Shown here: one piece after another, positions 1-11,265 of the stretch
Layout: each line of letters opens with the position of its first letter
How positions within the stretch are numbered: the stretch's first letter is position 1
Assembly: GCA_027028665.1 (NCBI GenBank)
Contig: JALVIU010000218.1
Coordinates: 1-11,265, forward strand
Origin: Candidatus Atribacteria bacterium
GTDB taxonomy: Bacteria > Atribacterota > JALVIU01
Direction of reading: 5' to 3'
DNA: 11,265 nt
Translations under genes and position numbers: made by a program
Notes under the pieces: model-generated
What the model was told of the DNA's origin: nothing
Seen by the model: only the letters and a program-made list of their open reading frames with translations
Database searches by the model: none

Positions 1-100
1 TTGTAATAGCTGATGTGAGTGTTGTCTTACCATGGTCTACATGGCCTATAGTCCCAATATTTACATGGGGCTTAGTTCTTACATATTTTTCTTTTGCCAT
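1..100 (-). CDS. tuf: Elongation factor Tu, N-terminal 33 residues (cut by window edge)
   Basis: EF-Tu is the cytoplasmic GTPase that carries aminoacyl-tRNA to the ribosomal A site. The gene starts at ATG (98-100) and runs off the left edge. The visible residues contain the P-loop GHVDHGKT at residues 19-26, followed by TLTSAIT; this G1 motif and its lead-in ([20 protein letters not shown]) are diagnostic of EF-Tu rather than EF-G, IF2 or SelB. The start is supported by AGGAGGG seven bases upstream. It lies 19 nt after the fusA stop, the classical str operon order, so it is very probably cotranscribed with fusA. The GTPase G2-G5 motifs and domains II and III are outside the window, so integrity of the full gene cannot be judged. 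Confidence 0.97.
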
Positions 101-107
101 ATGTGAT

Positions 108-114
108 CCCTCCT
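108..114 (-). promoter_or_regulatory. Shine-Dalgarno site of tuf
   Basis: On the minus strand this reads AGGAGGG, followed by ATCACAT and the ATG of tuf. Spacing is 7 nt. The string AGGAGGGATCA is close to the full complement of the usual 16S rRNA 3' end, which fits very high EF-Tu expression. Confidence 0.85.
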
Positions 115-119
115 AATAA

Positions 120-2189
120 TTACTTTCCAATTAAATCCTTTGCCAACCCCTCTGGAAGTATTTCATAATGTGAAAACTTCATCGAATAGGTAGCTCTTCC
201 TTGAGTTTCCGATCTCAATATATTAGCATAGCCAAACATTTCAGAAAGAGGTACAAGAGCCTTTATCACATGAACTCCTGAACGTGGTTCCATATGCTCT
301 ATTCTTCCTCTTCTCGAATTAATATCACCTATTACTGCACCAATATATTCTTCAGGTGTAATAATTTCTACTTCCATAATAGGTTCTAAAATAACAGGTT
401 TCGCCTTTTTTTGAGCAGCTGTAAATGCCATAGAACCAGCTATCTTAAAAGCTATTTCAGATGAGTCTACGGGATGATAAGATCCTCCAAGCAAAGTTGC
501 TCTTATATTTACTACTGGATAACCTGCTATTGCACCTGCTTCCATGGCCTCTTTTATACCTGTTTCTACGGCAGGAATATACTCCTTAGGAACCTCACCA
601 CCTACTACTTTATTTACAAATTCAAACTCTTTTCCTTCCAGAGGTTCTATCAAAAGTTTTACATGTCCATACTGTCCTCTACCACCTGTCTGTTTTATAA
701 ATTTACCTTCTGCTTCAGCAGGGGTGGTAATCGTCTCTTTATATGCCACTTGAGGCTTGCCTACGTGAGCGTGAACATTAAACTCTCTTAATAATCTATC
801 TATTATTATCTCAAGATGGAGTTCTCCCATACCAGAGATAATGGTCTCTCCTGTTTCCCTGTTTTTTGTAATACGAAACGTTGGATCCTCTTCAGACAGC
901 TTATTTAAAGATTCTCCAAGCCTATCCAGATCTGCCTGGGTTTTTGGAGAAATGGCTACAGATACTACTGGTTCTGGAAAGTCCATGCTCTCAAGAACTA
1001 TAGGATGGTTAATATCACAGATAGTATCTCCTGTTACAGAGGACTTTATTCCTATTGCCCCTCCTATCTCTCCTGCATAGATCTCCTTGATCTCTTCTCT
1101 CTTGTCTGCATGAAAAAATAAGATCCTATTAATCCTTTCCTTTTTCCTAGTACGGGGATTATATACAGTCTCTCCTGCTTTAAGTTTGCCTGCATACACT
1201 CTAAAAAATGAAACCTTTCCTACAAATGGATCTGTTATAATCTTAAAAATCAGAGCTGTAAAAGGCTCATCATTAGAAGGATAACGAATAGCCTCTTCTC
1301 CTGTAGTTACATCTATACCCCTAACAGGGGGTAAGTCTAAAGGAGAAGGTAAAAAGTCTACAACTGCATCCAACAGAGGTTGAATTCCTTTATTCTTTAA
1401 GGCAGAACCACACAAAACAGGCGTAATTTTATTCTCTATAGTTGCTTTCCTTATAGCTCTTTTCAAAATCTCTGAAGGTATCTCCTCTCCTTCTATATAA
1501 AGGGTAAGAAGTTCTTCGTCATATTCTGCTACAGCTTCTATCATAAGTTCCCTATGCTTTGCCAGTTCTTCATCCTCTTCTGTAGAGAGAGGAATTACTT
1601 TATACTTATCTCCTAATTCACTTTCTGTATATGCAAGCTTTCTCTCATTTATAAGATCTATTACGCCCTCAAAATTCTCTTCCGCCCCTACGGGAATTTG
1701 AATAGGCACAGGATTAGCACCCAATTTCTCTTTTATCATTTCTACAGCACTCCAGAAATCTGCACCTACTCTATCCATCTTATTTATAAAACTTAATCTG
1801 GAGACATTATATTTATCTGCCTGACGCCATACTGTTTCAGATTGTGCTTCCACTCCCTCTACAGCAGAGAAAACAGCAATTGCTCCATCTAAAACTCTGA
1901 GAGATCTCTCTACTTCTGCAGTAAAATCTACGTGTCCCGGAGTATCTATAAGATTTATTCTATGGTCATTCCAGTAACAAGTAGTTACTGCAGAAGTGAT
2001 GGTAATACCTCTTTCTTTTTCTTGCTCCATATAGTCCATAACGGCATTACCATCGTGCACTTCTCCCATTTTCCACAATTTTCCTGTATAAAATAAAATC
2101 CTTTCACTTATAGTAGTTTTTCCTGCATCTATATGGGCCATTATTCCTATATTTCTTATTCTATTAAGATCTGTTATCCTTTTTTCCAA
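120..2189 (-). CDS. fusA: Elongation factor G (translocase GTPase)
   Basis: EF-G catalyses GTP-dependent translocation of tRNA and mRNA on the ribosome and, with RRF, recycles ribosomes. The 689-residue length is normal. The GTPase motifs are intact: G1 AHIDAGKT (18-25), G2 Thr63 within GITITSA, G3 DTPGH (82-86), G4 NKMD (136-139) and G5 SALK (262-265). By family comparison domain II is about 290-400, domain III about 405-478 (GMGELHLE at 453-460), domain IV about 480-605 and domain V the remainder. The domain IV tip YHPVDSSE carries His572, equivalent to E. coli His583, so this looks like a true translocase. The start is TTG (2187-2189), set by AGGAGGT seven bases upstream; the next in-frame ATG falls inside the P-loop region. 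The stop is TAA. It lies between rpsG (15-nt gap) and tuf (19-nt gap), as in a standard str operon. Confidence 0.98.
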
Positions 2190-2196
2190 AGAAAAA

Positions 2197-2203
2197 ACCT
2201 CCT
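2197..2203 (-). promoter_or_regulatory. Shine-Dalgarno site that fixes the TTG start of fusA
   Basis: On the minus strand this reads AGGAGGT, 7 nt before the TTG at 2187-2189. It begins immediately after the rpsG stop (TAG, 2205-2207), so ribosomes ending rpsG sit on the fusA initiation site, favouring translational coupling. No ATG or GTG lies at a suitable distance, which decides the UUG start. Confidence 0.85.
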
Positions 2204-2204
2204 A

Positions 2205-2675
2205 CTACCATCTATAATGGGCAAATGCCTTGTTAGCTTCAGCCATCCTATGGGTATCTTCTTTCTTTTTTATACTTGCCCCAGTATTATTGTAGGCATC
2301 AATAAGTTCTCTTGCAAGTTTCTCTTCCATGGTTCTTCCTGCCCTTGCTCTTGCATAATTAGAGATCCATCTCATAGCAAGAGATATTCTTCTTTCTGGT
2401 CTTACTTCTACTGGAACTTGATATGTAGCACCACCGACTCTTCTTGGTCTTACCTCTAAAACAGGCATTACATTATTAAGTGCTGTCTTAAAGACTTCAA
2501 GGCCATCCTTCTTGGTTCTTTCCTCTACTATTTTAAGAGCATTATAGAATATTCTCTCTGCAATACTCTTTTTCCCTTTCTTCATAATCACATTTATAAA
2601 ACGTGTTACCATAGTATCTCCGTATATGGGGTCTGGTAACACTTCTCTCTTAGGAACCTTACCCTTTCTTGGCAT
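2205..2675 (-). CDS. rpsG: 30S ribosomal protein S7
   Basis: S7 is a primary 16S rRNA-binding protein that nucleates assembly of the 30S head and lines the E-site mRNA exit. The protein is 156 residues, the standard bacterial length. The signature is clear: DPIYGD near residue 15, followed by [14 protein letters not shown], the basic block [16 protein letters not shown] in the middle, [13 protein letters not shown] in the second half, and the typical C terminus AFAHYRW. The ATG start (2673-2675) has AGGAGG seven bases upstream. The gene begins 11 nt after rpsL and ends 15 nt before fusA. In E. coli S7 represses the str operon by binding the rpsL-rpsG spacer; here the spacer is too short for that structure, so any autoregulation must use another site. 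Confidence 0.98.
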
Positions 2676-2682
2676 ACTTCAT

Positions 2683-2688
2683 CCTCCT
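2683..2688 (-). promoter_or_regulatory. Shine-Dalgarno site of rpsG, overlapping the rpsL stop
   Basis: On the minus strand this reads AGGAGG, 7 nt before the rpsG ATG. Two of its bases belong to the TAG stop of rpsL (2687-2689). The overlap implies tight coupling of S12 and S7 translation. Confidence 0.85.
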
Positions 2689-3061
2689 ATTTCTTAGGTT
2701 TTTTCGTCCCATATTTGGATCTTCCTCTTCTTCTGCCTTCAACGCCAGCAGCATCCTCTGCACCTCTAATTATGTGATAACGTACACCAGGTAAGTCCTT
2801 TACCCTGCCGCCTCTCACTAAAACCATAGAGTGTTCCTGTAAATTATGACCAATCCCAGGAATATAAGCTGTTACTTCTATCCCATTTGTAAGTCTTACC
2901 CTTGCAACCTTTCTCAAAGCAGAATTCGGCTTCTTTGGTGTTACTGTCCATACCCTCGTACATACTCCTCTTTTCTGAGGATTACCTTTCAATGCAGGAG
3001 TAGAAGACCTCTTGATTATCTTTTGCCTTCCCTTTCTCACTAATTGATTAATAGTTGGCAT
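2687..3061 (-). CDS. rpsL: 30S ribosomal protein S12
   Basis: S12 sits at the decoding centre on the 30S-50S interface and controls tRNA selection accuracy. The 124-residue length matches E. coli S12. Conserved blocks are all present: the N terminus [12 protein letters not shown], the decoding loop [11 protein letters not shown] (41-51), GHNLQEHS (71-78), [14 protein letters not shown] (83-96) and [10 protein letters not shown] at the end. Lys43 and Lys88 (E. coli Lys42 and Lys87 when the initiator Met is not counted), the classical streptomycin-resistance positions, are the sensitive-type residues. Asp89, the residue methylthiolated by RimO in many bacteria, is present. The ATG start has GGGAGG seven bases upstream. 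It is the first gene after the 130-nt promoter-bearing gap and so probably heads its own transcription unit as well as receiving rpoC readthrough. Confidence 0.98.
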
Positions 3062-3068
3062 TACAAAA

Positions 3069-3074
3069 CCTCCC
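3069..3074 (-). promoter_or_regulatory. Shine-Dalgarno site of rpsL
   Basis: On the minus strand this reads GGGAGG (GGGAGGT with the next base), 7 nt before the rpsL ATG at 3059-3061. Confidence 0.85.
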
Positions 3075-3099
3075 TATATTTTAGCTCTAATTTCACTAC

Positions 3100-3119
3100 T
3101 CTATATAGATCTATATAGA
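3100..3119. repeat. Perfect 20-bp palindrome made of two tandem 10-bp palindromes
   Basis: The sequence is TCTATATAGA written twice head to tail. Each 10-mer is its own reverse complement, so the 20-mer is both a tandem repeat and a perfect palindrome. It lies in the untranslated leader of rpsL, about 40-60 nt downstream of the predicted transcription start. As RNA it could fold into an 8-bp stem with a GAUC loop, but nearly all pairs are A-U, so the stem would be weak in a thermophile. As DNA the two half-units are one helical turn apart, which would suit a dimeric or paired regulator. Its TATATA segments could also resemble a second -10 box, but I find no convincing -35 partner. Function is unknown. 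Confidence 0.7.
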
Positions 3120-3165
3120 AATTCTTCTACATTTAAATTGCCTTTTAATTTTACAGACAGATAAT

Positions 3166-3195
3166 ATTCTATCAAATATCTTCCTCGTATGTCAA
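3166..3195 (-). promoter_or_regulatory. Strong housekeeping promoter for rpsL-rpsG-fusA-tuf, overlapping the rpoC stop
   Basis: On the minus strand a perfect -35 box TTGACA (3190-3195) is followed by an 18-nt spacer and the -10 box TAGAAT (3166-3171), one mismatch from TATAAT. The dinucleotide TG one base before the -10 box makes it an extended -10. Transcription would start near 3158-3160, leaving a leader of roughly 97 nt before rpsL. The -35 box uses the last T of the final rpoC sense codon, the TGA stop and the next two bases, so coding and promoter constraints share the same bases. Box identity is read directly; activity is inferred. Confidence 0.75.
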
Positions 3196-6100
3196 GTTTT
3201 TTCTACATTTTCTTCCCATATATTTTCAGCCTCTGTTTTTGGTGTCTTCTTCTTAAGCCTGAGCTTCTGATATTTTCTAAGTCCTGTACCTGCGGGTATT
3301 ACCTTCCCAATTATTACATTCTCTTTAAGTCCCAAGAGATTATCCACCTTTCCCTTAATAGCTGCATCTGTAAGTACATGGGTAGTTCTTTGGAATGATG
3401 CAGAAGAGAGGAAGCTATCTGTCAATAGTGATGCCTTTGTGATACCTTGTACAATCGGCTTTGCCTCTGCTGGTGCAAGACTATTCCTTATATATCCTAC
3501 TTTCTTTCTTATCACCCTCGTACCAACTTTTGTTCTTGCTGTCTTCAACCTTATAAAGTCAACTTTGGCCTTTACAATTTTCTCTGCATCTTCTTTCTTT
3601 ACAGTATCTTCTGCTTTCACAATTAATTCCCCTGTATTAGTATTTACAATATCTTGTACTGTTGTTTTTCCTACAACATCTTTATATAAAAATTCTAGGG
3701 CCCTCCCCTCGATAGAGAAAAATCTTCCATCAGAGAGAGGAACTTCTTCTACCCCTTGAGTTACGAATTCCCTTATCATATTCCTGGTAATTTGTTTACC
3801 TGCAGCTCCTATTATATTTCCATTTCCCGGAATTTCTACAGGAGCACCAAGAGGTGCACCAAGAATCTCTTCTCTCAACATTCTTATTAGTTTATCCTTT
3901 AAAGATATGGTCTCTACTCCTTCCCAAACCTTTACTATAGGAACATTAGAAAGTTTAATATTTTCCAAAATATCTGGTGTAATCCTTTCTCCTGCTTTAC
4001 CTAAAAGTTCACCTGTTTCAAGATCTACTATATCTTCTGCAATGGTAAAACCTGAGAGTTTTTCGATTAATTTTTCATCTATAAGAGTAATTGATTGAAT
4101 TTCACTATCCACAATATCTTCTAGCAACTCAGGTGTAAGGAGTGTACCATGGTCTAAAACTACCCTTTTTGATTGATCTCCTGTATTAAAGTTTAGAATT
4201 ACAGGTTTATCAAGAGTGCCACCTGCAACTTCTTTTATAAACAGCGAATTACCTTTATAGACTATAAATGGAAAGCCATTTTTTTCTTGAAGTTCTAATA
4301 CTCTTATCTCAGAATTTATTATCTCTTTTGCTAAATCATTATCTATCTCTACACCCTTTTCCGCTATCACTCTTCCGCCTTCATCACTTTCTACAACCTT
4401 TTGAGCAACAATACTGCCCTTTAAAAGTTCTATATTTGCACGTTCTATTTCTTTATTTTTTGCACTAATCTTTTCATTCTCCCTCTGGAAATCAGTATCA
4501 TATACAAGCTCTCCAGAAAGAAGCTCTGTATCTCCTGCTTCTCTTATATAAATCTTATTAAGCCTTGCAATCTGACGAATTATAATCTCTATATGTTTAT
4601 CATTTATAATAACACCTTGCGAACGATATATTGCCTGGATTTTTGAAAGCAAATACTCCTGAACTGCTCTTACTCCTTTTATTCTAAGTATATCTTTTGG
4701 ATTCGCATCTCCTTTCGTAAGATAATCTCCCGATTTTACAATATCTCCTACTTTAACTCTAATTTTATTGGCCATATCTCTTGGAACTACATATGTCTCA
4801 ATACCATCTTCTGTCTTTATATAAATCTTTGTTTTCTTTTCTTCTATCTTTATATCCACTACTTCACCAGCTACATCTGCAAGCACTGCCTGGTTAGCAG
4901 GTCTTCTTGCCTCAAAGAGCTGTTCTACCTGAGGTAGACCGTAAGTAATATCTCCTTCTGCTCTCCTTACCCCACCTGTATGGAATGTACGAAGAGTAAG
5001 CTGAGTTCCTGGCTCTCCTATAGATTGAGCAGCTATAATACCTACGGCTTCGCCTACATTTACAAGGCGACCTGTTGCAAGATCCCTACCATAACATTTA
5101 GCACACACACCATATTTTGTTTTACATGTAAGTACAGATCTAATTTTTACTTCTTTTATTCCTGCACGCTCTATTGTCTCTGCCTTTTCGGGGGTAATCT
5201 CTTCATTTGCATCTACTATTACCTCACCTGTATTGGGATCGATAATTCTCTCAAGAGAAGTCCTTCCCATTATTCTATCCTTTAATCTCTCTACTACTGT
5301 CTCATCATTCATAAGGTCAGTTACTGTAATACCATCTGAAGTTCCACAGTCCTCTTCTCTTACTATAAGATCTTGGGATACATCAACCAATCTCCTTGTA
5401 AGGTATCCAGATTTTGCGGTACGTAAAGCTGTATCTGCGAGGCCCTTACGTGCACCATGGGTAGAATAAAAATACTCCAATACAGAAAGACCTTCCCTAA
5501 AGCTTGCCTTAATTGGGAATTCTATAATTCTTCCTGTAGTGTCTGCCATAAGACCTCTCATACCAGCAAGTTGACTTATTTGATCTTTACTACCTCTTGC
5601 GCCAGAATCTGCCATAATGAATAAAGAATTCTTTTCATCAAGATTCTCAAGAATAGCGTCTCCTACCTTTTTAGAAGCATTACCCCAAATAATAGATACC
5701 TCTTCTTCTTTTTCATCTTGAGTAAGCATACCAGCTGCGAATCTTGCATTTATCTCATCTACTCTCTTTTCTGCATCTGCAATAATACTCTCTTTATTTG
5801 TCGGGATCTCAAGATCTCCTATACCTATAGAAATTCCTGAAAGAGTTGCAAATTCAAATCCAAGATTCTTAAGTTTATCTAATACCTCTACTGTCTTAGA
5901 ATTTCCGTACTTTGAATATAATTCTATTGTCAATTTTTCCAAAGTAGACTTCTTTACAATATCATTATAAAATTCAAATTCTTCAGGAAATATTTCGTTG
6001 AATAAGATACGACCAATAGTAGTACCTCTCATCTTTCCATCTATTTTTACCTTAATGGGCTCCTGTACTCTTGAAAGCCCCTCTTCTTTATCCAGCATCT

Positions 6101-8228
6101 CACTTTGATAAGCTAAAAGGGCTTCATTCATAGAACCATAAACCTTCTTTGCATGTTTTAATATCTCTTCTTCTGTCTTATAAGGAGAATATGTAAGATA
6201 GTAAACACCAAGTACTACATCTTGAGTAGGAATAGCAAGAGGCTTTCCAGATGCAGGAGACAAAATGTTATTAGAAGAAAGCATAAGAATTCTTGACTCT
6301 GCCCTTGCTTCAAAAGAAAGTGGTACATGAACAGCGATTTGATCGCCATCAAAATCTGCATTGAAAGCAGTACATACAAGAGGGTGGATCTTAATAGCAT
6401 TTCCCTCAACTAGTACGGGTTCAAATGCCTGAATTCCTAATCTATGAAGTGTAGGAGCTCTATTCAAAAGTACTGGATGATTTTTTGTTACACGTTCAAG
6501 TATATCCCATACTTCAGATGTTGTATTGTCTATCATCCTCTTTGCACTCTTTATATTATGGGCAAGACCAGTTTTTACAAGCTCTTTTATTACAAAAGGT
6601 TTAAAAAGTTCAAGGGCCATTCTCTTGGGAAGCCCACACTGATGGAACTTTAGTTCGGGACCTACAACTATAACAGATCTTCCAGAGTAATCAACACGCT
6701 TACCCAAAAGATTTTGTCTAAATCTACCTTTCTTTCCTTTTAGTATATCACTTAAAGATTTAAGAGGCCTATTTCCAGATGCAAGAACAGCACGTCCTCT
6801 TCGACCATTTTCTATAAGTGCATCCACTGCCTCTTGAAGCATCCTTTTTTCATTCTTCACTATTATATCTGGTGCATCCATATCTATAAGCTTTTTTAAC
6901 CTACTATTTCTATTTATTACCCTTCTATATAGGTCATTTAAATCTGATGTGGCAAATCTACCCCCATCAAGCTGGACCATAGGCCTTAAATCTGGAGGTA
7001 TTACTGGTAAGACTTCAAGAATCATCCACTCTGGCTTATTTCCAGATTTTCTAAATGCTTCTACTATTTGAAGTCTTTTAACAAGTTTTCTATTTTTTTG
7101 TCCCTTAGTATTTCTTATCTGTTTTCTTAAATTTCTAGCAAGTTCTTCAAGATCTAAAGATGCAAGAAGCTCTTTTATTGCTTCTGCGCCAATACCTCCT
7201 CTATAATCTGAATCATACTTTTCAAGTAATCTATGAACACTTTCTAATAAAATTTCTCCTCTGGAATACCCACTTTGTCCAGGTTCTATCACTATATAAG
7301 AGGATTCTTCTATTGTTCTTATAGCAAGTTCTGCTTCTCCACCAAAATTTGCCCTATAAAAATCTACTTCGCTCTCGCTTATAAGATCCCATTCATTATC
7401 TGGAGAGAGCACCCATGTAACCTTATAAGTTTTTGCACCTTTTAATGCTGTAATAACAAATCCGTCCTCTCCTTCTAATTTCTCAACTTCAAAATCTCCT
7501 TCATGTTCCTCTAATAAATCTGTATATACCTCTTCTGAAATAACATCTCCTACAGAAACTCCAATATCTGCTTCTGTAGTTTGAAGTTTTGCCCTAAAAA
7601 ATATACCATACTTTTCCCTTAAAGATTCATATTCTTCCTCGGAAAGGACGTCTCCTACCTTGATTGGAAGTTCTGGAACTAAAGAAACCTGGTAGGCTTT
7701 TTCTGCTTCTATATCAATATTGTAATGTTTATAGATATTATACTCAGACTCTGTAAGAATATCTCCCACTCTTACATCAGCATCTATAGATGCCTTCTTT
7801 ACCTTATATAATTGTTCTCTTTTACGAGTAGATGCAAAATAAAGTATTTTTTCTAATTCTTTTGTAGTAATATTTAAAAGAAGAGACATTGGACTTGGAA
7901 TGCCCTTAAAATACCATATATGAGAAACAGGGGCAGCAAGTTCAATATGCCCCATCCTCTCTCTTCTTACTATAGATCTGGTGATCTCTACTCCACATTT
8001 ATCACAGATCATACCTGCATGTTTTTTTCCTTTGTATTTCCCGCAATGACATTCCCAATCCTTTACAGGTCCAAATATTTTCTCACAAAAAAGCCCATCT
8101 TTTTCGGGTTTTAGACTTCTATAGTTTATAGTCTCTGGCCTCTTAACCTCTCCATGAGACCAACTCCTTATTTCTTCTGGAGAAGCAAGGCTTATTTTTA
8201 GGCTAACAAATTCTTTATAATTGGCCAA
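3192..8228 (-). CDS. rpoC: DNA-directed RNA polymerase subunit beta' (long form with two insertions)
   Basis: Beta' forms the clamp and half of the active centre of RNA polymerase. At 1678 residues it is far longer than the roughly 1200-1410 of Bacillus or E. coli. The core is intact: zinc site Cys60, 62, 75, 78; rudder/lid region around [20 protein letters not shown] (498-517); catalytic NADFDGDQ (623-630) with Mg-binding Asp625, 627, 629; bridge helix around 915-948 ([14 protein letters not shown]); second zinc site Cys961, 1035, 1042, 1045; trigger-loop region about 1058-1087 with His1083; and C-terminal [18 protein letters not shown] and [16 protein letters not shown]. Extra sequence lies at about 142-320 and 1263-1585, both repetitive. 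There is no E. coli-type insertion in the trigger loop: [24 protein letters not shown] runs uninterrupted in two conserved blocks. The TTG start (8226-8228) follows GAGGTG by 7 nt. The gene lies 32 nt after rpoB and is presumably cotranscribed with it. Confidence 0.98.
3474..4442 (-). repeat. rpoC: RpoC C-terminal insertion of about 320 residues: five copies of a hairpin-like motif
   Basis: Residues about 1263-1585 separate [20 protein letters not shown] from [20 protein letters not shown], blocks that are nearly adjacent in Thermus and E. coli beta'. Within it I see five degenerate copies of a 35-residue unit, roughly TGEli.kaGe.iT.e.le.i....v..v.v. They sit near residues 1280-1314, 1353-1385, 1401-1436, 1465-1500 and 1528-1562. 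A further copy is in the conserved core just before the second zinc site ([18 protein letters not shown], from 997). The reading frame is uninterrupted and composition matches the rest of the gene, so this is an in-frame domain expansion. Boundaries are approximate and taken from remembered homologues. Confidence 0.75.
7254..7805 (-). repeat. rpoC: RpoC N-terminal insertion: tandem copies of a VGD-[IV]-[LI]-[ST]-E motif
   Basis: Residues about 142-325 lie after the conserved [17 protein letters not shown] block. Three copies of a unit read [12 protein letters not shown] (152-163), [12 protein letters not shown] (189-200) and [12 protein letters not shown] (224-235), with the aligned Tyr residues 37 and 35 apart. 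Each is followed by an acidic helix-like stretch. A fourth, degenerate copy ([19 protein letters not shown], 324-342) runs into the conserved GAEAI core and matches the single copy in E. coli beta'. Thermus also has a large insertion here, built of sandwich-barrel hybrid-type modules; equivalence to that domain is inferred. Confidence 0.7.
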
Positions 8229-8235
8229 AGGAGTT

Positions 8236-8241
8236 CACCTC
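8236..8241 (-). promoter_or_regulatory. Shine-Dalgarno site that fixes the TTG start of rpoC
   Basis: On the minus strand this reads GAGGTG (GAGGTGA with the next base), 7 nt before the TTG at 8226-8228. It lies in the 32-nt rpoB-rpoC gap, which otherwise holds only an A/T-rich stretch and no terminator. Protein homology at residue 10 onward ([14 protein letters not shown]) agrees with a start at this TTG. Confidence 0.8.
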
Positions 8242-8260
8242 TACTTTATATTTTTTCAAT

Positions 8261-11200
8261 TTAATCCTTCCAGGGAGAAGTCTTAAGAGGAATATTTCCA
8301 AGGTCCTCCTCCATTTCCTTTAATTGTATTTCATTTCCTTTCTCATCATATATCTGTACCTTTAATGCAAGACTTTGGAGTTCTTTTATGAGCACCTTAA
8401 ATGATTCTGGAATACCAGGTGTAGGTATATTCTCTCCTCTAATAATCGCCTCATATGTCTTTACTCTACCAATTACATCATCTGATTTTACAGTTAGCAT
8501 TTCCTGAAGGGTATAAGCTGCTCCATAGCCTTCGAGTGCCCATACCTCCATTTCTCCAAATCTCTGGCCACCAAACTGAGCTTTTCCACCAAGAGGTTGT
8601 TGGGTGACCAAAGAATAAGGTCCAGTAGCCCTTGCGTGAATCTTATCATCAACGAGATGTATGAGCTTTAGCATATATATATAACCTACTGTAACAGGAT
8701 TATTAAATCTCTCTCCTGTTCTCCCATCTCTTAGATAAACCTTACCATTTTCAGGAAGTCCTGCTTTTTTAAGATATTCTTCTATGTCCTCTTCTTTTGC
8801 TCCATCAAAAGCAGGCACTGCTACATGAAGTCCCAACTTCTTTACAGCCCATCCTAAATGAGTTTCAAGAATCTGTCCTATATTCATACGAGATGGCACG
8901 CCCAATGGATTAAGTACAATATCCACAGGGGTTCCATCCTCCAAGAAAGGCATATCCTCTTCTGGAACTATTCTAGAAACTACTCCTTTATTTCCATGTC
9001 TTCCAGACAATTTATCTCCCACAGAGATCTTCCTCTTTTGAGCAACCCACACCTTTACCAATTTATTTACACCAGAGGGTAATTCATCTCCTGCCTCTCT
9101 GGAGAATTCTTTTACATCAATTACCTTTCCATATTCACCATGAGAAACCCTAAGAGAGGTATCCTTTACATCTCTTGCTTTTTCCCCAAATATTGCACGA
9201 AGCAATCTCTCTTCAGGAGAAAGTTCTGTTTCACCCTTTGGCGTTACCTTGCCCACAAGGATATCCTTCTCCTTTACCTCTGCTCCAACACGAATAATAC
9301 CTCTTTCATCAAGATTTCTAAGTGCAGATTCCCCTACATTTGGAATATCCCTTGTAATCTCTTCTGGACCAAGTTTTGTATCTCTTGCCTCTACTTCATA
9401 TTCCAATATATGAATAGATGTCAATATATCCTCTTTCAATAATCTTTCATTTATTAATATAGCATCTTCAAAGTTATAGCCTCTCCAGGACATAAATGCA
9501 ACCAAAAGATTCCTTCCAAGCGCAAGATCTCCTTTATCTGTAAGCGGACCATCTGCTAAAACATCACCCTTCTTAACCTTATCACCCTTTGAAACAAGTG
9601 GTTTTTGGTTAAAACAGGTACCCTGATTAGTACGTTTAAATCTCTGGAGAGGATATGAAACCACATCACCCTCCTTTGTCTTAATGATAACTTCATCTCC
9701 TGAAACCTTCACTACTTCACCATCCACATCTGAAATAACTAATGCACCAGAATATTTTGCAGCCATTTTTTCCATACCTGTACCTACGAGAGGGGCCTCA
9801 GGCCTTACAAGGGGAACAGCTTGGCGCTGCATATTTGCACCCATCAAGGCTCTATTTGCATCATCATGCTCTAGAAAAGGTATCAAGGAAGCAGAAACTC
9901 CTATCATCTGATTAGGAGCTACGTCCATCATATCTACTTCATCTTTAGAAACCATCACTGCACGGCCATTATATCTAACAGGTACTTCATCCTCTAAGAT
10001 ATTTCCCTTATCGTCCAACTCTATATTAGCAGGAGCAATCCTTAAACCTTCTTCATCTATAGCTGTAAGATACCTAACTTCATTTGTAACACGGCCATCT
10101 TTTACTACTCTATATGGTGTCTCTATAAAGCCCATTTCATTTATTCTCGCATACACGGCAAGGGTGCCAATAAGTCCAATATTAGGACCTTCAGGAGTTT
10201 CTACAGGACATATTCTTCCATAATGACTGGAATGAACGTCTCTTACCTCAAATCCTGCATGCTCTCTGGTTAAACCACCGGGGCCAAGGGCGCTAAGCCT
10301 TCTCTTATGAGTAAGAGCGGAAAGAGGGTTTACGTGATCCATAAACTGAGAGAGCTGGCTACTCCCAAAAAACTGATTTATTATAGCAGTAATTGGCCTT
10401 ACATTTACAAGGGTTTGCGGTGTTATCGTACTTTCATCTGTTTGAAGAGACATTTTTTCTTTTATAGAACTTTCAAGTTTTAGAAAACCTGTTCTTAAAT
10501 GATTTTGCAGAAGTTCTCCAACCGCCTTTACCCTTCTTATGCCAAGATGATCTATATCATCAACCTTGCCTACTCCTCTTTTGAGATTAAGTAAATATCT
10601 TAAAAGTCCAATTATGTCCTCAGGAGTAAGAGATTTGCCTTTTTCTACCAAAACTTTATCTTTTACCTTTTTTAGTTTCTTTAAAATATCTTTGGTTATT
10701 ACTTCTCCAGTTTTAATTATAGGATTTCCTTTTTCATCAAATACATCTTCTCTTATTTTACGTCCTAATAGATGTTCACTTATCTTTTCAAGGGTTTCTG
10801 GCAATTCAAGCCAAACTTCTACATCTCCTTCAGGGGTAAAGACTTTAACTTTAGGAATTCGAAGTTCTTCTATTTTTTCTGCAAGGGCTTTTGTAATAAT
10901 TGTTCCACCCTTTGCTATTATATTTCCGTCTTTATCCAAAAGGGGTTCATCAGATAAAATAAGACCAACAATCCGTTCTTGAATAGAGAGTTTTTTATTT
11001 AATTTATATCTCCCTACTTCGCCTAAATCATACCTTTTTGGATCAAATAACATTCTATGAAGTGTTTGCTTTGCAGCATCTATATTAGGAGGTTCACTAG
11101 GTCTTAATCTTCTAAAGAGCTCTAAGAGGCCCTCATGATAAGAACTGGTAGGATCCTTTTTTATAGTAGCTTCAATCTCTTCTTTATATGGGAAAAGAGA

Positions 11201-11265
11201 TAGAATTTCTTCATTTGTTCCGTACCCTAATGCCCTTAAGAAGATAGTAATAGGAATCTTCCTTC
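8261..11265 (-). CDS. rpoB: DNA-directed RNA polymerase subunit beta (5' end beyond window)
   Basis: Beta forms the other half of the RNA polymerase active centre. The frame is open to the right edge: upstream of the ATG at 11051-11053 it encodes 70 further residues with typical beta sequence ([16 protein letters not shown] at the edge, [12 protein letters not shown] just before), so that ATG is internal. About 1000 residues are visible and roughly 190 are missing by comparison with Thermus. Numbering from the ATG at 11053: rifampicin-pocket region [10 protein letters not shown] (230-239) to [14 protein letters not shown] (248-261), [20 protein letters not shown] (396-415), FEDAI (528-532), [12 protein letters not shown] (679-690) with the active-site lysines 681 and 689, and the C-terminal switch [20 protein letters not shown] (822-841). 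The stop is TAA at 8261-8263. The gene lies directly upstream of rpoC. Confidence 0.98.
10619..10984 (-). repeat. rpoB: Pair of hairpin-like motifs in the N-terminal half of RpoB
   Basis: Between the conserved blocks GRYKLNKKL and [15 protein letters not shown] are two copies of one unit: [20 protein letters not shown] (from about residue 38, numbered from the ATG at 11053) and [20 protein letters not shown] (from about 104). Both end in a short helix and a strand with alternating Val/Lys. The unit resembles the repeated motif of the RpoC C-terminal insertion. Firmicute beta subunits carry a related segment (DPETGEILAEKG type) at this place, whereas Thermus is short here, so this is a known variable region of beta rather than a foreign insert. 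Confidence 0.65.

Follow-up and report, generated by a model that had tools for sequence, protein, structure and literature searches.

An arm of five BEAN modules in the RNA polymerase beta' subunit of Atribacterota, very probably shared by descent with Synergistota

The rpoC gene of a member of Candidatus Atribacteria raises the question of what a large block of residues near the C terminus of its beta' subunit is made of, where it comes from and what it could be good for. The gene is located on contig JALVIU010000218.1 (assembly GCA_027028665.1). Positions 1 to 11,265 of this contig, the whole stretch of DNA that was analysed, are called the window here, and all positions refer to it. The genes on the minus strand are rpoB, which is truncated at the contig end, rpoC, rpsL, rpsG and fusA; rpoC was assigned by TIGR02386 and Pfam. 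The assembly is a fragmented Atribacterota MAG with a completeness of 89.9%, and among the genomes compared its source is the sole member of its own family within the phylum. The features which are relevant for the analysis are summarized in Table 1.

Table 1. Features of the rpoC and rpoB genes in the window, with the repeat units of the beta' insertion
Feature	Residues	Positions	Strand	Basis
rpoB; 5' end cut by contig end; N-terminal part with two BEAN units (B1, B2), beta SI1 region		8261..11263	-	
rpoC, RNA polymerase beta', TTG start	1678 aa	3192..8228	-	TIGR02386, Pfam RNA_pol_Rpb1_1-5
Core BEAN copy, beta'-bD5, general in bacterial beta'	985-1035	5124..5276	-	matches bD5 of solved beta'
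Lineage-specific insertion in bD7, directly before switch 1	~1259-1583	3480..4454	-	
BEAN/BBM2 unit R1	1268-1334	4227..4427	-	hhalign vs core E 7.5e-07; AF2 model
BEAN/BBM2 unit R2	1335-1391	4056..4226	-	hhalign vs core E 1.1e-07; AF2 model
BEAN/BBM2 unit R3, tip VDLETGELL	1392-1455	3864..4055	-	hhalign vs core E 1.6e-10
BEAN/BBM2 unit R4, C-terminal near-invariant LxDGRFFSxEGR hairpin/helix	1456-1518	3675..3863	-	hhalign vs core E 4.2e-09
BEAN/BBM2 unit R5, tip VNTNTGELI	1519-1572	3513..3674	-	hhalign vs core E 1.7e-12; AF2 model

An earlier note, made from the sequence of the window, had proposed an insertion of about 320 residues at this place. Its presence is confirmed, and its limits could be refined from 3474-4442 to 3480-4454 on the minus strand, which gives a length of 325 residues. 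In a phmmer comparison with the beta' chains of the PDB the alignment to solved beta' is interrupted at query residues 1259|1584, while the Clostridium thermocellum chain 8i23_D is continuous at its residue 1109. Once the insert is taken out, its two flanks form one unbroken alignment with C. thermocellum 1023-1181, E. coli 1213-1367 and Thermus 1326-1478. That is also true for the beta' subunits of Mycobacterium and Bacillus. The alignment with other beta' proteins therefore shows a continuous site in Thermus, E. coli and Clostridium, and Thermotogota carry one unit there. The junction, computed from the aligned ranges, lies at about residue 1296 of E. coli beta'. Switch 1, which we take to be E. 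coli residues 1304-1329, follows shortly after it. By this mapping of the flanks to E. coli the insertion is situated inside bD7, a small domain which was named 'small left claw' and whose limits were taken from Table 2 of PMC11515920. The position on the secondary-channel/jaw side which had been expected at first is not supported by this mapping. A model computed with enzyme context was too poor to position the arm relative to the rest of the polymerase (pLDDT 70, pTM 0.49).

The BEAN domain (CATH 3.90.105.10) corresponds to beta-beta' module 2 (BBM2) and is found in beta'-bD5 as well as in betai4 (SI1) of E. coli. The insertion had been read as five degenerate TGE-type units related to a copy in the conserved core of beta' (residues 997-1031), and this reading holds. 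Profiles of the units were built from 37 Atribacterota beta' sequences and matched against one another as well as against the core copy 985-1035. The units reach hhalign scores of 40-73 against the core copy, while 92 other beta' windows, which were used as a control, score 10.7±2.5 (s.d.) with a maximum of 17.6. Significant internal similarity is thus detected through the profiles, with E-values of unit against core from 7.5e-07 to 1.7e-12, and the AlphaFold2 model described below repeats its pattern fivefold. The relationship of insert and core is detectable even by a single-sequence search (E 5.7e-5), and the units match the beta SI1 units with hhalign probabilities of 86-98%. The degeneration is strongest in R1 and R2, for which no significant hhalign match was found when they were compared with each other alone (3% probability). 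Because R1 and R2 match some of the other units weakly when taken alone, the family is joined through the core copy, R3 and R5. The sequence TGE is exactly present in the core copy, R3 and R5; R2 contains TGD, and the tips of R1 and R4 are degenerate. The mean column identity of the insert is 50%, in comparison to 64% for residues 905-1660, and the aligned region 1247-1582 spans 325-343 residues across 21 beta' proteins. Judged by its sequence, the hairpin and helix with the motif LxDGRFFSxEGR in R4 is the candidate for the most conserved surface of the insert.

For the fold, residues 1225-1610 were modelled by AlphaFold2 with 21 sequences (mean pLDDT 88.9, pTM 0.75). The model shows the same pattern five times over, which is a short strand pair, a strand, a helix and one or more strands, often together with a linking helix. 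Foldseek retrieved 15 RNA polymerase beta chains at E <= 1e-3, the best with 9.1e-05. The best solved matches are the betai4/SI1 domain of beta, 3lti and 7egs among them, and the beta' core copy (8i23). The structure 7egs shows the lobe of the E. coli enzyme in complex with the C-terminal domain of UvrD. VIA-align gave Z values of 8.0-8.9 over about 60 residues to beta'-bD5 and betai4, in particular a Z of 8.4 to beta' bD5 of 8i23 (rmsd 1.6 over 59 residues, 36% identity) and of 8.5 to betai4 of 3lti; as the tool gives a warning about common arrangements at Z values not far from 8, the BEAN assignment is settled by the sequence match. Only model residues 188-340, which correspond to R3-R5, are covered by many of the matches. 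The matched ranges are discontinuous in the model (for example 214..340 for 59 aligned residues), and elements may therefore be shared or exchanged between adjacent units. The structure matches obtained fell on BEAN regions. The prediction thus yields repeated strand/helix modules, with matches to the BEAN kind by Foldseek and VIA-align. Both by identity and by fold, the insert is almost certainly an arm of BEAN (BBM2) modules.

Two other regions of the polymerase genes should be mentioned. The profile of the Atribacterota insert also matches a region of rpoB at window positions 10661-10990. A second lineage-specific insert is present in domain bD2 of beta' (residues ~134-310, window 7299-7829), in which 'VGDxLSExEY' motifs recur. 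Its first unit resembles the adjacent core motif of bD2 (hhalign 98.6%). We also considered this bD2/NCD insert (134-310) as a set of further BEAN units. It reaches scores of just 5-13 with the BEAN profile, and the assignment was rejected.

The insert is present in 46 of 50 Atribacterota genomes. The other four do not even match the conserved end of rpoC, so that no Atribacterota genome in which this part was seen lacks the insert. Nearly all named relatives that the insert profile retrieved belong to Candidatus Atribacteria/Atribacterota, including Caldatribacterium. One contig labelled Candidatus Lokiarchaeota (JAGXNU010000222.1, L050) carries an rpoC end of the Atribacterota type, most likely due to a binning error. 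According to a search with the joined flanks, the site is contiguous almost everywhere in 160 genomes, which are nearly all of different families. Outside of Atribacterota the full array was found in these 160 genomes in G171 and G308 (Thermanaerovibrio acidaminovorans, Synergistota). The insertion is therefore lineage-specific as supposed before: all Atribacterota with an assembled beta' C terminus contain it and most other families do not.

A homologous array of about 305 residues is encoded by 118 of 120 Synergistota genomes. In Thermotogota (e.g. Kosmotoga pacifica) 60 of 61 genomes are matched, with one BEAN-like unit at the bD7 site, and the G150 lineage likewise has one BEAN-like unit there; this single unit comprises roughly 50-70 residues. 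Extra BEAN-like sequence is also found beside the bD5 core copy in Thermotogota (L083, L084, L081) and in G150 (L080). Within the Synergistota, genus g328 (L116-L125) contains a highly acidic low-complexity stretch, variable in length (roughly 30-90 residues), inside R5 which does not occur in other Synergistota. A sixth repeat unit had been considered for this genus and was rejected, since the gap is made up by that stretch. In another Synergistota genome rpoC is split into two frames within R5 (G395:C1:626830-628012, a single contig), due to either a sequencing error or a true frameshift. A further one contains two differing rpoC copies with the array (G427:C9:119819-121015 and G427:C4:138977-140173), which could reflect a duplication or a mixed bin.

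How do the two full arrays relate to each other? The Atribacterota insert profile matches the array of Synergistota G171 over positions 9-318 (E 2.7e-12), and the arrays of both phyla align co-linearly, end to end. The Synergistota units S1, S3 and S4 find their best matches in R1, R3 and R4, respectively. S5 is closer to the core copy, R1, R2 and R4 than to R5, and the best match of S2 is ambiguous; the orthology unit by unit is therefore incomplete. In a maximum likelihood tree of the core beta' columns without inserts (22 sequences, midpoint root) Atribacterota and Synergistota group together with 99% UFBoot, apart from Thermotogota and G150 (93%). Very probably the array was already present in the common ancestor of Atribacterota and Synergistota and is shared by descent. 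In the course of events that we propose, one BEAN unit would have arrived at the bD7 site in the ancestor of this group of phyla. This single unit would then have become an array by in-frame duplication of units, before Atribacterota and Synergistota split.

Growth of the insertion from the core module, as it had been suggested in the earlier note, could not be told apart from other origins. The relation to the core copy holds, but the core as the source is not separable from the two BEAN units in the beta subunit, and Thermotogota have a single unit at the very site of the insertion. When the profiles were made equally deep, R3 scores 57.8 against the core copy and 61.3 and 65.6 against the two beta BEAN units, while R5 scores 68.1 against the core copy and 65.5 and 57.7 against the beta units. 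Because these profiles score alike, the core copy and the beta subunit are indistinguishable as the source of the first unit. The reading of an origin from the core copy alone was not kept, since the beta SI1 units match equally well. For BEAN domains in general, PMC11515920 states that no supported tree could be computed.

We propose that the arm would serve as an accessory surface for the docking of proteins, via its hairpin tips and the faces formed by hairpins and helices. The analogy is to the BEAN modules of beta SI1, which dock the Tudor domain of PcrA/UvrD. An accessory docking role is inferred because the insert stands in the place of a surface loop, changes faster than the core does and spares the catalytic motifs. 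In addition, the arm may bias clamp movement through the adjoining switch 1. That docking is the main role of the arm can be put forward tentatively by this analogy, as a possibility that falls somewhat short of probable. The statement as a whole, of a five-BEAN arm in bD7 which goes back to a shared ancestral array and offers an accessory docking surface, appears reasonably probable to us.

The partner could in principle be PcrA/UvrD itself. The array would then be a docking site specifically for this helicase, and its TGE hairpins would be extra or relocated motifs replacing one that is missing from beta SI1. In Bacillus subtilis the Tudor domain of PcrA docks on the TGE hairpin of beta SI1, and the motif was given as [VIL]-D-x-x-T-G-E-[VIL]-[VILT] (PMC8318588). 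In the window R3 (VDLETGELL) and the core copy (IDPNTGEVI) fit this helicase interaction motif exactly and R5 fits it nearly, and the motif was not found in the portion of beta encoded on the contig. In several genomes of the Tudor-bearing family f5, R5 reads LDPETGE[VL]. However, across the inserts of relatives the motif is not conserved and is missing from most, and the TGE tips of R3 are also found in families without the Tudor domain. The source genome (89.9% complete) yielded no PcrA/UvrD Tudor domain either. Within the Atribacterota that domain (PF21196) occurs in family f5 and in part of f2 and was not found in f1, f3, f4, f6 and f7, which suggests its loss in part of the phylum. In the insert the strict motif is present in four of nine Atribacterota with the Tudor domain and in one of 14 without it (Fisher p 0.056). 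Beta carries a relaxed motif in seven of eight Tudor-positive and five of 13 Tudor-negative genomes (p 0.067); both p values are optimistic, because the genomes are related and not independent. As beta of the Tudor-positive genomes usually keeps the relaxed motif (7/8), a relocation is not needed. PcrA/UvrD docking as a conserved role was rejected, since the motif is not kept in the insert. The support being weak and mixed and the motif unconserved in most inserts, docking is kept general here, and the specific version, which is built on motif matches, is regarded as an improbable rival.

Other explanations do not involve a docking partner. The arm might mainly tune the polymerase, in that it is tied to bD7 beside switch 1 and restrains clamp opening or stabilises the assembly of the core. 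This would agree with the insertion point, which immediately precedes switch 1 (E. coli ~1296), and with the second large insert (134-310), since bD2, in which it sits, is a homologue of bD7 (homology: PMC11515920). On the other hand no contact between arm and core was obtained in the context model (pLDDT 70), and related enzymes function with one unit, as in Thermotogota, or with none. Tuning as the main role is therefore conceivable but unlikely. The arm could also have accreted neutrally, if a small module on the surface was duplicated several times without a selected function. The lower conservation of the insert (50% versus 64% mean column identity) and the long acidic low-complexity addition inside R5 in one Synergistota genus speak for this. 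We nevertheless consider neutral accretion as quite unlikely, because the insert is intact, in frame and of near-constant length in every Atribacterota genome with that part of rpoC, and because it contains near-invariant positions, for example in the R4 hairpin LxDGRFFSxEGR. The earlier note had finally suggested a stabilisation of the enzyme at high temperature. Some carriers are indeed thermophilic (Caldatribacterium by name and Thermanaerovibrio acidaminovorans). The five-unit array is, however, found in 118 of 120 genomes of the Synergistota, a phylum which includes mesophiles such as Dethiosulfovibrio (PMC5738826), and the thermophilic Thermotogota have one unit only. Adaptation to heat is thus very improbable.

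The insertion is real, well defined and ancient, and it belongs to the published class of BEAN/BBM2 insertions. It had been suspected from the beginning that it might fall into a class already listed. PMC11515920 and PMC1586193 bear this out, as BBM2/BEAN insertions, those at this site included, are described there. The middle of bD7 is listed as a BEAN insertion site in the former, with variants in Firmicutes and in the DST group (Thermotogae, Synergistetes and relatives). The latter, quoting Iyer et al. 2004, counts four BBM2 insertions in Thermotoga, and in betai4 the number of BBM2 in an array is given as one to six (PMC2939025). Neither the five-unit array of Atribacterota nor its identity with that of Synergistota turned up in the literature texts covered, to which Table S4 of PMC11515920, Iyer 2004 and Lane and Darst 2010 did not belong, and none of the texts covered was found to name an rpoC insertion of Atribacterota. 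The arm puts an uncultured phylum on the map of insertions in RNA polymerase. The graded series of no, one and five units at a single site provides a way to study how such an arm grows. The shared array also backs a specific link of Atribacterota with Synergistota, in a way that does not depend on ordinary sequence trees. Should a partner be found, a function could be assigned to a module whose role is obscure in most RNA polymerases.

In comparison to the BEAN domains of beta'-bD5 and betai4, the fold of the unit, the sequence family, the TGD/E-type tip and the use as an insertion in RNA polymerase are the same (PMC11515920; PMC2939025). The difference is in number and place, with five tandem units in beta'-bD7 here and one core copy or two tandem beta units there. 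The same kind of module is also found in the beta' BEAN insertions of the DST group, for which the bD7 location is published in PMC11515920, and the Thermotogota unit is located at the same site. Atribacterota and Synergistota, however, possess five units there and Thermotogota one. Cyanobacterial Si3 resembles the arm in being a large array of one repeated module within beta' (PMC11515920). It consists of HABAS/SBHM folds, lies in the trigger loop and belongs to another lineage, whereas the array described here is built from BEAN modules and is placed in bD7.
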